Source: Ulva prolifera (taxonomy: Eukaryota; Chlorophyta; Ulvophyceae; Ulvales; Ulvaceae). From it: a stretch of DNA of 64,000 bases. The position numbers and the translations under genes were made by a program. The stretch covers positions 5,991,361 to 6,055,360 of the forward strand of contig CM041200.1 in NCBI GenBank assembly GCA_023078555.1. Reading direction: 5' to 3'. The notes under the pieces are model-generated. The model saw nothing but the letters and a program-made list of their open reading frames with translations. It was not told the origin of the DNA and made no database searches. This document shows positions 19,444 to 23,937 of the stretch, piece after piece (positions within the stretch are counted from its first letter, which is position 1; each line of letters opens with the position of its first letter).

Positions 19444-19789
19444 TGTCAGAAAGTCTATCCTTCGTCAGGTCAGACACGCAGTCTTATGTCAAGTCAGGAG
19501 GCCAGCATCTCATTCCTGCTGCGCACAGAGGTAGAACCAGAGAGATGCTGAGGAGGAGACAAGATACGACTAGTACCGAGAAACAGTGAGAGAAAGGTTA
19601 CAGCTTTCCGTGTGCACAGCCATATGCACACTGAATAGTCAAGATTACGGCGGGAGATCCTCGCAGGATCTCCCTCACTACTCCGGGACAATCCCGCTGG
19701 CGGCTTACCCCTACACATGATCCGCGGATCATTCGTGCATGGGTGCACCTGTCACCACACTGCTGCCCGCAGGCGCATGCATTGTGACA
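19444..19789 (-). repeat. Cop-A1 5' LTR
   Basis: This 346-bp LTR begins TGTCACAATGCATG on the minus strand and ends TTTCTGACA next to the primer-binding site. It pairs with 1-158. It is clearly diverged from the A2/A3 LTRs, so Cop-A1 is a separate subfamily. Confidence 0.93.
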
Positions 19790-19806
19790 CCGGGTTGGGG
19801 GGGCGT
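19790..19806. other. Host DNA sliver between the two nests
   Basis: These 17 bases, G-rich in the middle, are all that separates Cop-A1 from Cop-A4. They include the presumed right TSD of Cop-A1 (ccggg) and the left TSD of Cop-A4 (ggcgt, 19802-19806). Original host sequence resumes after 43722. Confidence 0.8.
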
Positions 19807-20141
19807 TGTCATAAATGCTCTCATCTGCAGGTAAGACACGCAGTCTTAAGTCAGGTCAGGCAACCAGCATTCCATACCTGCTGCGCACAGAGGAATGCGG
19901 GGAGAATCAGGATACCGCTAGTACCGTGAAACAGTGATAAGAAAGGTTACAGATCTCAGTGTGCACGTGCTTATATGCACACTGAACACTCCAGGTTATG
20001 GCGGGAAACCCTTGCGGGATCTCTCTCACTACGTCGAGACAATCTCGGCTGGCGGCTTACCCCTGCACTGGATCCGCGGATCGTCCGTGCATGGGTGCAC
20101 CTGTCACCACACTGCTGCCCGCAGGCTCATGCATTGTGAAA
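19807..20141 (-). repeat. Cop-A4 3' LTR
   Basis: This 335-bp copy is shorter than its partner because of an 11-bp deletion near 19885. It has accumulated further substitutions, including a mutated terminal base (TGTGAAA instead of TGTGACA). The polypurine tract lies next to it at 20142-20156 on the minus strand. Confidence 0.9.
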
Positions 20142-20308
20142 CTCCCCCATAAACCCTGCTACGTCTCCACTAGCTGGAGTTTATTACGAACTTCTTGCAA
20201 AGCAGGTCCGGGCAGCACTTTGATAAACACATCCGCTAACTGATCAATAGTACCTACCCATGCCACCTTAAGTTCATCCATCTGGACATATTCCCGCACT
20301 CGCAAGTG
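20142..20308 (-). pseudogene. Cop-A4 RNase H terminus
   Basis: This minus-strand fragment encodes the end of RNase H, homologous to the KVAWVGT, ADVF and KVLPGPAL stretches of Cop-A1. It is cut at 20308/20309 by element C and continues at 23055. Confidence 0.85.
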
Positions 20309-20646
20309 TGTGGCAGCACAGACTTCTCTGGGCTGTGAGAATGAGTCATGCTAATATTGAAGTCAAATGTGAGGTGCAGCAATGGCTGCCTCATTGACCG
20401 ATTGTCCTCTATTAGTGTTGCATGCACACGTGAGACGGACAGTGAAGACTCAGGAAAACGAGTCAACACACACGCATGCAGGCAGATGCCTGACATGATG
20501 CGTGACACGACGCGTACGCAGTCGTGTGAGAGCACCACACATCCTATGGTATAGTATGATGTGATGGTGTGGATGATTTGGTAGATCTGAGCTCCACAGA
20601 GCCAGAGTGTTGTGCTCTGTGCACCATGGTGTGTGCGTGGAAATGG

Positions 20647-20653
20647 TATATAT
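20647..20653 (+). promoter_or_regulatory. TATA box of element C LTR
   Basis: TATATAT lies 31 bp upstream of 20678, where the duplicated leader segment starts. This spacing is normal for a TATA box and its start site, so 20678 is the predicted transcription start. Confidence 0.65.
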
Positions 20654-20703
20654 GCAGCCGTGCACTCTGTAGCAGACATCTTGTCTGAACAGAGAATGCA
20701 CAG

Positions 20704-20809
20704 GTATGCACATCCAGCTACGGTAGTTTGGACTGCATGTTGTGTTCGTGTGCTGAGTGTCATTGTGAGAACTGTGGGTAGCATATAGTTCATAGAACAG
20801 ATGTTGCAG
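20704..20809 (+). other. 106-bp GT-AG intron within the element C LTR
   Basis: The segment begins GTATGC after CACAG and ends GTTGCAG before GTGCTG. It is precisely absent from the second copy of its flanks at 20897-20987. Its length and splice sites fit the short introns of the host genes in this window. The same segment lies at 22772-22877 in the 3' LTR. Confidence 0.8.
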
Positions 20810-20896
20810 GTGCTGTGTATGTATTGAGCAAAGGCCAATACAACAAGTGACAGATCACCTGTTTATTCCCACAGGTGAGACAACTTAGCACATGTA

Positions 20897-20987
20897 ATCT
20901 TGTCTGAACAGAGAATGCACAGGTGCTGTGTATGTATTGAGCAAAGGCCAATACAACAAGTGACAGATCACCTGTTTATTCCCACAG
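20897..20987 (+). repeat. Intron-less duplicate of the leader (91 bp) in element C LTR
   Basis: These 91 bases equal 20678-20703 joined to 20810-20874, with no mismatch seen. The copy starts at the predicted cap site and ends at the LTR/primer-binding-site boundary. A 22-bp spacer (20875-20896) ending in a TGTA sequence separates it from the first copy. Confidence 0.85.
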
Positions 20988-20998
20988 GTTATGGGCCT
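20987..20998 (+). other. Element C primer-binding site (tRNA-iMet anticodon arm type)
   Basis: GGTTATGGGCCT follows the LTR. It is complementary to the anticodon arm of initiator tRNA-Met (GGCCCAUAACC). Drosophila copia uses this kind of site, primed by a half-tRNA. It differs from the TGGTATCG sites of the A and B elements. Confidence 0.75.
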
Positions 20999-21015
20999 AT
21001 CGCGAGTACTGCGCT

Positions 21016-21753
21016 ATGGAGTACCGGAACAACGCTCTGAACGCTGTTAGAAAGCTGAAGAGAGATGGCGACTACCGCATGTGGGCGGCGCAATTCGAAG
21101 CCTCGATGGTAACGATGAATTGCGAGCGCTGGCTCACGGATGAGCCTGACGCTGAGGAGCCGGCGGAAGTCCGGGAGGATGTCAACGTCAAGAGCCGAAT
21201 GCTGCTGACGGTCGACGATCGCGGTTTGATGCGGATCATCAAACGCGCTCCGAATTCGGTGCAAGCGTGGCAAAGGGTAAGAGCTGAGTTTGAAGCAGAG
21301 CTTCAGCTCAGGCAACCGCTGCTCGTCAACCAATTGAATGCGATGAGGCAGACGACGGCGGAGTCATACACGCGGTTTGCTGAACGAGTGCTGGAGGTAC
21401 TCGAGAAGCTTAAAGATACGAATTTCGAAGCGGCTGATGAACTTGCCGCCAACGCACTCGTGCGGGGTCTTCGAGAATCGTCGGAGAAGGGATCCCTCGT
21501 GTTGTTGCTGACACCACACGTCGAGACGGGGTTCAACCAGGTCGTGACTGAGCTGAAATCAGCGACACGACTGCTGGAGAGCGCTCGAGAGCGGTCAGCC
21601 CGTGAAAGGCATATGCATGATTCCGATGATGACAGTCATGGCGATGATAAACGTGATGGCCGTGTCATGATTGCAAACGGCGAGGGACATCGTTTCTGCC
21701 ATCATTGCGGACACGAGTTTGAGTTTGAAGGGTTCTCTAGCTGTCATGCATGA
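21016..21753 (+). CDS. Gag-like protein of element C
   Basis: This 245-residue protein starts at the first ATG after the primer-binding site. Residues of about 1-190 resemble a copia Gag (UBN2/DUF4219 type): an early GDYRMWAAQFEASM segment with the conserved Trp, then helices including a VNQLNAMRQ stretch, SYTRFAERV and ADELAANALVRGL. An Arg/Asp/His-rich linker follows (about 195-220), and a C-terminal Cys/His cluster (CHHCGHE) looks like an incomplete zinc knuckle. It would form the particle that packages the element C RNA. A normal copia Gag-Pol would continue into protease, but a stop ends the frame here. The frame is intact, consistent with selection for Gag function. Confidence 0.82.
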   Translation: MEYRNNALNAVRKLKRDGDYRMWAAQFEASMVTMNCERWLTDEPDAEEPAEVREDVNVKSRMLLTVDDRGLMRIIKRAPNSVQAWQRVRAEFEAELQLRQPLLVNQLNAMRQTTAESYTRFAERVLEVLEKLKDTNFEAADELAANALVRGLRESSEKGSLVLLLTPHVETGFNQVVTELKSATRLLESARERSARERHMHDSDDDSHGDDKRDGRVMIANGEGHRFCHHCGHEFEFEGFSSCHA

Positions 21754-22376
21754 AGCACATACATAGAATGTACTGCACCAGATTTGCAGTGCAGAAAGCC
21801 ACAGCATGTGTTGCTAAGGGAGCTTGTTTGTGAAAGGGTGCTACATTGAGACAAACAGGGGGAGTGTGCAGTCATTCTGATCATTTCTTTTACTGTTTTG
21901 TCGAGCAATGAGCAGCGAATCGGACAGAGTATGACCGACGTGCGAGTGAATATTGCCTGAATTCATGAAGCAGTAGCTTGCATGGACGAGATGCTCCACT
22001 CTGATGGGTGTAGCGATGCGAGGTGTCTATAGAAGGACAGACAGTCGTGAGCACAAGCACCAAGAATGAGCAGGGGTGCCCGAGCGTGGTACCTTGGTAC
22101 AGTCCAGCATGGATGTCAAGACGGCATCCTACACGGCCACGGGTGCAGCAGCGACGCAATGCTGAGAGCACAAGGGTGCGCCGCGGGGGGAGAGAAGCAA
22201 AAATGCGATGCAATTGCTTGGGCCAATGTCTGACAAGGGTGCATGGGCGTTACGAGTCTATAAATGCTGTCATGACATGTCAGCACGGGTGACTGAGAAG
22301 AACAAGCAGAAGAGAAGAAGGGGCACATGGGAATGTGGATCCTACTGCAGCCTATAGCATGACCATTCAGGGGGAG
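21754..22376 (+). other. Element C non-coding 3' region and polypurine tract
   Basis: About 620 bp between the gag stop and the 3' LTR have no recognisable pol remnant. It ends in AGGGGGAG (22369-22376), the polypurine tract. Confidence 0.7.
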
Positions 22377-23054
22377 TGTGGCAGCACAGACTTCTCTGGG
22401 CTGTGAGAATGAGTCATGCTAATATTGAAGTCAAATGTGAGGTGCAGCAATGGCTGCCTCATTGACCGATTGTCCTCTATTAGTGTTGCATGCACACGTG
22501 AGACGGACAGTGAAGACTCAGGAAAACGAGTCAACATACACGCATGCAGGCAGATGCCTGACATGATGCGTGACACGACGCGTACGCAGTCGTGTGAGAG
22601 CACCACACATCCTATGGTATAGTATGATGTGATGGTGTGGATGATTTGGTAGATCTGAGCTCCACAGAGCCAGAGTGTTGTGCTCTGTGCACCATGGTGT
22701 GTGCGTGGAAATGGTATATATGCAGCCGTGCACTCTGTAGCAGACATCTTGTCTGAACAGAGAATGCACAGGTATGCACATCCAGCTACGGTAGTTTGGA
22801 CTGCATGTTGTGTTCGTGTGCTGAGTGTCATTGTGAGAACTGTGGGTAGCATATAGTTCATAGAACAGATGTTGCAGGTGCTGTGTATGTATTGAGCAAA
22901 GGCCAATACAACAAGTGACAGATCACCTGTTTATTCCCACAGGTGAGACAACTTAGCACATGTAATCTTGTCTGAACAGAGAATGCACAGGTGCTGTGTA
23001 TGTATTGAGCAAAGGCCAATACAACAAGTGACAGATCACCTGTTTATTCCCACA
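22377..23054 (+). repeat. Element C 3' LTR
   Basis: This 678-bp copy carries the same intron-plus-spliced-duplicate structure as the 5' LTR, with one base difference seen. The composite LTR has therefore been replicated as a unit. Confidence 0.93.
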
Positions 23055-23937
23055 AAGTGCCGCACACGAATGTGCTTGGATCTGTCAGTGGACACGGCAT
23101 TGACAGCCAAAATGTTTGCACTCTTATTGTCACCCCACAGAGTCGGCTTATGTGGGACGAGCTTTAAATCGAGAAGCAACTGCTTCACCCACATTAACTC
23201 GTTGGTTGTTGAACTCATCGCGATGAGCTCAGCCTCTGTTGTGTCCCCAGCCACTATACTCTGCTTCTTCGAACGCCAGAGAACAGAGTTCCCATACACT
23301 CGAATAACCATACTAGATACGCTTTTCATATCAGCAGAGTTCGCAAAATCTGCATCCGAAAAAGCTTCCAACAAACACCCGTGTCCCACAGAGCCTATAA
23401 ATTTTATCCCTAGATTCTTTGTGGAATGTAGGTATCTCAGGATATGTTGCACGGCAGACCAATGTTCCTTTAGACTACTAGACATGTGCCGGGCCAGGGC
23501 ATGTGCCACATATCTCAGGTCAGGTCGTGTCACTCCTGCAATATATTGGATGCTCCCTACAGCACTCATGAACCTGGAATGCTCAGCAGCACTGGCTTTC
23601 TCCAGGTCAGAATGCTCCTTCACACTCCTTAGCTGTTGCCGCGGCACTAATGGAGTGGGAGATTTACGACAGTCGGACATGCTGTACTTTTCCAGCAGGT
23701 TCTGGAATTGGTACGTTGTGTCATTGTGATTGTTTTGGCCTTCCGATCACGCGTGATCGCAGTGCCAAGTGCCCAAGACAGGTCACCTAGGTCTCTACCT
23801 TCGAATTTTGTGAGAATGACACTGATGATTTCTTGCAGCCCCGCAGAGCAACTAAAAATGAACAAATCATCCACCCACAGAAAGATAAAGCAGCGACTGG
23901 TTTAACTGACATACAGTCCGGGATCACTCTGTGCGCA
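23055..23937 (-). pseudogene. Cop-A4 RT and RNase H (broken)
   Basis: This minus-strand continuation of Cop-A4 holds RNase H (GDTTEAEL, WGDNKSANILA) and the last part of RT up to DPGLYV. It has a frameshift near 23708 and an in-frame stop next to LYV. The sequence stops abruptly at 23937, where the Gyp-D LTR begins. The next upstream codons of RT are absent from the window for this element. Confidence 0.9.

Follow-up and report, generated by a model that had tools for sequence, protein, structure and literature searches.

Concerted evolution within the LTR of an Ulva retrotransposon points to repeated rewriting from a spliced leader

How might an element that passes through RNA keep what looks like an intron inside its long terminal repeat (LTR), and why would that LTR also hold a copy of the intron's two flanks, joined exactly where the intron is missing? 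Introns are normally erased when spliced RNA is reverse transcribed. Many LTR elements, moreover, ignore the poly(A) signal in one LTR and use the same signal in the other. Both matters are raised by element C, a retrotransposon of Ulva prolifera that lies within a 64,000-nucleotide stretch of contig CM041200.1 (the window; positions are those of the window unless another sequence is named).

Results

Anatomy of element C

Element C lies on the plus strand between two perfectly matching target-site duplications, AAGTG (20304–20308 and 23055–23059). Its 5′ LTR (20309–20986, 678 bp, TGTGGC...CCACA) is built as U3-A-I-B-sp-A′-B′, an arrangement that we call form D; a short form, S, is U3-A-I-B. 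A TATA box (TATATAT, 20647–20653) stands 31 bp upstream of the predicted RNA start at A (20678–20703, 26 bp), which would serve as first leader exon and as R sequence. Segment I (20704–20809, 106 bp), bounded as CAG/GTATGC...TTGCAG/GTG, is a putative first intron, and B (20810–20874, 65 bp) would be the second leader exon. The spacer sp (20875–20896, 22 bp) opens with a splice donor motif, GTGAG, which begins 18 bp upstream of TGTAA (20893–20897), a green-algal poly(A) signal (its function is taken from excerpts of PMC1868727) that straddles the sp/A′ junction, so that a donor precedes a poly(A) signal. A′B′ (20897–20986) repeats the joined A and B as far as the LTR end, and the primer-binding site (PBS), GGTTATGGGCC(TATCG), follows at 20987–21002. 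A second putative intron (20875–20987, 113 bp; CAG/GTGAGA...CCACAG/GTTATG) would hold sp, A′, and B′. Further downstream, a polypurine tract (GGGGGAG, 22370–22376) precedes the 3′ LTR (22377–23054), which differs from the 5′ LTR at one of 678 positions.

A preliminary description of this locus had reported that 20678–20874, without the GT-AG segment, equals 20897–20987. Alignment gave the same result, with no mismatch in 91 positions (A and B against A′B′), and an exact 91-bp repeat that lacks precisely a GT-AG segment is not due to chance. Both LTRs carry the whole structure, as that description had also stated; in the 3′ LTR, A occupies 22746–22771, I 22772–22877, B 22878–22942, sp 22943–22964, and A′B′ 22965–23054, and the lone apparent mismatch in the 3′ copy is base 23055, outside the LTR. 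The reported start of the copy 31 bp after TATATAT was likewise confirmed (20647–20653 against A at 20678). Its reported end at the PBS needs a correction of one base, since the LTR stops at 20986 and 20987 is the first G of the PBS. These limits would be those of minus-strand strong-stop DNA, as had been proposed. The further proposal that the copy derives from a spliced leader RNA stands insofar as its sequence equals that of a spliced leader, the splicing itself being presumed. A occurs twice per LTR, 219 bp apart, and if A is R, this LTR does not have the single R of a conventional U3-R-U5 LTR.

Element C is a short, non-autonomous Ty1/copia-type element. The only plus-strand open reading frame (ORF) of at least 150 amino acids between its LTRs (21016–21753) encodes a copia-type Gag (Retrotran_gag_2, PF14223, E = 6.1e-9), the LTRs are of the TG...CA kind, and the target duplication, AAGTG, is of 5 bp. 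A protein database search with this Gag found no homologue at E ≤ 0.001. L010, a longer relative whose 5′ LTR is of form D, encodes gag, zinc-knuckle, and integrase (rve, L010:2527–4575) domains; its protein has 12 database homologues, the best two of which are from Ulva mutabilis (52% and 54% identity). Downstream of L010, in L079, there is a partial RVT_2 match (profile positions 15–178 of 244) in a frame ending at L079:620. The order of integrase and then copia reverse transcriptase was observed solely in L010/L079, and element C has no known pol domain. The ORFs scanned, which covered part of the element sequence, gave copia Gag, integrase, and RVT_2, with no GIY-YIG endonuclease among them. 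By eye, the start of gag (window 21000–21300) looks near-identical in element C and L010, in contrast to their LTRs, with a similarity of only about 71%; the discrepancy suggests that LTRs were exchanged between subfamilies.

The GGTTATGGGCC portion of the PBS matches TGGGCCCATAACCCA, in the anticodon arm of three host tRNA-Met (CAT) genes detected with ARAGORN, and the tRNA is the predicted primer. We take the three genes to be of the initiator type, judging from the anticodon arm. A tRNA pattern search of the genome matched ten LTR/PBS junctions, belonging to eight D LTRs and two S LTRs (L066, L067). Removal of both putative introns would lower the number of ATGs ahead of gag in element C (window 20678–21015) from nine to three. 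We considered and rejected an N-terminal extension of Gag encoded by the spliced leader: Subfamilies 1 and 2 (defined below) lack an in-frame ATG that reaches gag before a stop.

Two copia LTRs of another family, about 81% alike, stand side by side on the minus strand at 19444–20142, and element C is inserted in the adjoining minus-strand copia sequence.

Relatives elsewhere in the genome

The genome was searched at the DNA level with the LTR, the leader part of L010, part of L018, and A′B′; with at most 40 candidates scored in each search, all family counts are lower bounds. At least 28 D LTRs were parsed genome-wide, a minimum also because the parser required that ATCTTGTCT be intact in A as well as in A′; L015, L057, L062, L069, and the truncated 5′ LTR of L025, which have no intact A or A′ motif, fall outside this number. 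Form D is present in three LTR subfamilies: subfamily 1, that of element C (18 parsed D LTRs); subfamily 2, L009–L017, L021, and L022 (seven); and subfamily 3, L018–L020, L023, L059, L060, and L063–L071 (three).

If the LTR had been enlarged, related LTRs without the duplicate should exist, as the preliminary description anticipated, and S forms were indeed found in all three subfamilies: L061 in subfamily 1 (with CCCAT on both flanks, by eye), L017, L021, and L022 in subfamily 2, and L063–L068 in subfamily 3. The expectation that the short LTR is simply the ancestral form fared less well. On a tree of 41 LTRs (31 D, comprising the 28 plus L015, L062, and L069, and 10 S), S LTRs are interspersed among D LTRs and form no single group; there are eight changes between the forms (shuffled mean 8.3), at least four of them forced by well-supported branches. 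The scatter indicates that S is recurrent. It may originate by removal of intron 2 alone or by recombination between B and B′.

Two LTRs have a third arrangement. L059 (G000:C7:1778163) and L060 (G000:C7:1746057) are decayed U3-A-B LTRs, with neither intron I nor the duplicate; their 3′ flank is common to both, so they may represent one event followed by segmental duplication. A decayed U3-A-B form is as expected if strong-stop transfer (see below) occasionally goes to A. Searches of the genome with exact patterns gave no match to intact U3-A-B and none to sp-A-I, two arrangements predicted from alternative splicing or transfer routes; these zeros count against the cycle proposed below but carry little weight because exact patterns are blind to decayed copies and passed over L059 and L060. 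In L022 (G000:C9:1962957–1963044), an inverted spliced A-B, bounded by the R start and the LTR end, sits within the U3 of an S-form LTR and resembles a free spliced strong-stop cDNA that was captured there. This U3 seems to be incomplete.

Concerted evolution of A′B′ with A and B

The three subfamilies have diverged considerably. Among the 28 D LTRs, A+B differ by 19%–23% between subfamilies, B by 23%–27%, and I by 29%–32%. Within an LTR, by comparison, A+B and A′B′ differ by a mean of 0.6% in subfamily 1 (n = 18), 0.6% in subfamily 2 (n = 7), and 10.8% in subfamily 3 (n = 3, decayed copies), each gap being counted once. For every A′B′ the nearest A+B was that of its own subfamily (28 of 28).

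Variants confined to individual copies tell the same tale on a finer scale. B and B′ share a variant at position 51 in C8:4126449, one at position 53 in the LTR pair C7:3624497/3626568 and, as judged by eye, in L024, and one at position 49 in subfamily 2; a 1-bp insertion of L010 is likewise present in B and B′. Against this, one-sided differences in subfamilies 1 and 2 number eight, of which seven are restricted to a single LTR each and one, in L025, is found in B′ of both LTRs and absent from B. This last variant fits either a parental difference between 5′ and 3′ LTRs or a round without rewriting. The variant table covers subfamilies 1 and 2 without L024 (C3:1438602) and L010 (C5:3858525), which were left aside for length or gaps; in L024, A+B and A′B′ differ by four mismatches and two gaps.

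We also compared the rest of the LTR between the two LTRs of an element. Six LTR pairs, two of which share one LTR, differ at 0–2 of 588–616 sites (one pair by a single gap); a further pair, C7:2413766/2411685, is without a full U3 and has no value. Divergence between paired LTRs is of the same low order as that between A+B and A′B′ in those LTRs, so the A′B′ of young copies appears about as old as the last transposition and not as old as the subfamily. Taken with the matched B/B′ variants, the tracking of its own A+B by A′B′ across three diverged subfamilies argues for repeated rewriting over one inherited accident.

Conservation of splice and poly(A) signals

The motifs at the putative junctions are conserved throughout the parsed D LTRs. 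The first donor, CAG/GTAT, the first acceptor, AG/GTG, and the second donor, GTGAGA, are each present in 28 of 28, a result that is partly circular because the parser demanded GTA(T/A), AG/GTG, and GTGAGA(C/T)A, although none of the 28 candidate pairs was rejected for motif failure. The triplet before the second donor is CAG in 27 cases and CAA in one, and the spacing from TATA to A is 31 bp in 27 of 28. By eye, the acceptor tract has only a weak richness in pyrimidines.

The spacer had been described as the end of a read-through or longer RNA, with a TGTA(A) signal. The signal was borne out, in that TGTAA closes sp across the junction with A′ in 27 of the 28 D LTRs. A random read-through end is contradicted by the GTGAGA donor and terminal TGTAA common to all three subfamilies. 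Over its full length, sp shows 6.8% divergence between subfamilies 1 and 2 (I: 31%), and 26%–29% between these and subfamily 3, about as much as I does. UGUAA is the leading poly(A) word in Ulva ESTs and peaks near −17 in chlorophytes other than Pyramimonas (excerpts of PMC1868727); given this peak, the RNA end would fall inside A′.

The second acceptor depends on the base that follows the LTR. This base is G in seven of eight PBS-adjacent D LTRs and in three of 19 others (one further row has no base), a contrast that is partly given because the PBS begins with G by definition. Among the three flank G's, that of L020 belongs, by eye, to a degraded PBS; the LTR end is missing in L019.

A proposed replication cycle

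We think that the D LTR is probably a Ty1/copia-type LTR with two leader introns and a doubled R, in which A′B′ is rewritten from the spliced leader through transfer of strong-stop cDNA to A′. This reading builds on the anatomy, its presence in three subfamilies, the concerted evolution of A′B′ with A+B, the conserved donor and poly(A) motifs, and the geometry of the junctions; from these, both splicing events, the poly(A) site, and the transfer to A′ are predicted.

Transcription would start at A of the 5′ LTR, and splicing out of intron 1 (I) and intron 2 (sp-A′-B′) would leave a leader, A-B-PBS, of the same sequence as A′-B′-PBS. In the acceptor AG of intron 2, the A would be the final base of the LTR and the G the opening base of the PBS. 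Lying within intron 2, the 5′ poly(A) signal would be discarded along with it. In the 3′ LTR there would be no PBS to complete the acceptor, the next base being set by the target; TGTAA would be kept there and the RNA cleaved inside A′. With the RNA starting at A on the 5′ side and cleaved in A′ on the 3′ side, A and the start of A′ would act as the terminal R.

With priming at the PBS, reverse transcriptase would then produce a strong-stop cDNA of the spliced A-B, which would transfer to A′ at the 3′ end of the RNA. The new LTR would consist of U3-A-I-B-sp, from the 3′ end, and A-B, from the spliced 5′ leader; A′B′ would be rewritten again and again, and intron I would survive in the LTR. A cycle of this kind would produce an A′B′ that is without I, ends at the PBS, and tracks A+B, and under it the donor and TGTAA would be kept. 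It counts against the scheme that intron I of the 3′ LTR would have to escape splicing in the template RNA. The full proposition, in which the element would replicate through spliced genomic RNA, the distal LTR would be rewritten in each round, and the PBS-completed acceptor would distinguish the 5′ from the 3′ LTR, seems to us evenly poised between being right and being wrong.

Alternative explanations

Could the copies be kept alike by DNA-level processes? A tandem duplication of A-I-B, loss of I by slippage between CAGGT repeats, and later gene conversion would together give form D. The CAGGT repeats do bound I on both sides, and conversion is able to homogenize near repeats. However, conversion would need to act on two short stretches, A (26 bp) and B (65 bp), and to leave I and sp untouched. 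Microhomology at CAGGT could produce the junction once by deletion; it would not produce the repeated agreement of A′ with A and of B′ with B. This scenario also leaves without a reason the 5′ limit spaced from the TATA box, the conserved donor and TGTAA, and the inverted A-B of L022. We therefore consider this course of events unlikely.

Homogenization might instead come from template switching between the RNAs of short (U3-A-I-B) and D elements, with no splicing of intron 2. S LTRs are interspersed with D LTRs (the eight changes on the 41-LTR tree), and two of ten PBS-adjacent LTRs, L066 and L067, are short. Switching can transfer the PBS-proximal part of B to B′; it cannot transfer A to A′, yet A′ tracks A in all three subfamilies, which makes this explanation quite unlikely.

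The preliminary description favored a single past accident that was carried along, in which the transfer of spliced strong-stop cDNA to a read-through 3′ end happened once and the LTR so enlarged was then copied faithfully as a block. The anatomy fits, and the first D LTR may have arisen in just this way, the disagreement being over its later history. Block copying predicts that A′B′ and A+B have diverged since the duplication, and concerted evolution contradicts this as the whole story: Form D occurs in three diverged subfamilies in which each A′B′ matches its own A+B, and variants of a single LTR or element are matched in B and B′. A one-time event as the full account is, in our judgment, very unlikely.

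A last possibility, that the 106-bp segment is a late introner-like insertion that entered the first copy of an A-B tandem, is extremely unlikely. CAG/CAGGT at both ends can be read as a short target duplication, but I occupies the same site in three subfamilies with copies 29%–32% different and is thus older than the present A′B′ copies, and inspection of I by eye noticed no terminal repeats.

Comparison with known systems

Rewriting from a spliced leader would, if true, solve intron keeping and the choice between 5′ and 3′ poly(A) signals by one arrangement, the 5′ copy being marked by its contact with the PBS. One part of the LTR would then preserve, in legible form, the spliced leader of the parent, and genome sequence by itself would suffice for studying splicing and the first strand transfer. 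In the results consulted from exact-phrase searches of open-licence papers, neither an intron between the cap and the PBS of an LTR element nor an LTR rewritten from spliced cDNA was described. The "Ltr" of one further paper is presumably the name of a group II intron. Elements of the TR-GAG type are non-autonomous LTR elements that, like element C, have a sizeable ORF for Gag; the oddity of element C is its LTR, which it shares with the longer L010. Another candidate parallel was dismissed, as the excerpted text of PMC4558846 concerns LTR-driven transcripts of a miniature element, unlike the case of element C.

Element C shares with Ty1/copia elements (Pseudoviridae; with Hemivirus-like use of a tRNA fragment) a Gag, TG...CA LTRs, a 5-bp duplication, a polypurine tract, and a PBS matching an internal part of tRNA-Met (ICTV profile, in excerpt). 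The LTRs of that group are described as one U3-R-U5, whereas element C would have R twice per LTR and two introns between cap and PBS. Foamy viruses have, like element C, a splice donor before the poly(A) signal in both LTRs, an arrangement in which the 5′ and 3′ LTRs must be told apart; in these viruses the 5′ poly(A) site is reportedly suppressed by U1 snRNP and RNA structure (excerpts of PMC3694450). In element C, by contrast, only an LTR adjoining the PBS would have a complete acceptor, and the PBS would be retained in the spliced RNA.

Penelope-like elements are likewise retroelements able to spread intron-containing copies despite an RNA stage, for which antisense or unspliced templates are discussed by the authors (excerpts of PMC3846280). 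Their enzymes are different and they have pseudo-LTRs, whereas in element C, as proposed, the LTR also receives the spliced copy. The LTR1 lentiviral vector, an engineered construct described as needing one strand transfer instead of two, illustrates that the first strand transfer can be rearranged; the excerpted text makes no mention of LTR rewriting by a spliced copy (PMC5542766).

Further copies

Two additional loci are of note. L072 (G000:C3:20153–20238) is an isolated A′B′ fragment without the first bases of A, next to which no U3 or sp was seen. Finally, at G000:C1:5972963–5977783 three near-identical subfamily-1 LTRs follow one another at a spacing of ~2.07 kb, resembling two tandem elements that share one LTR.
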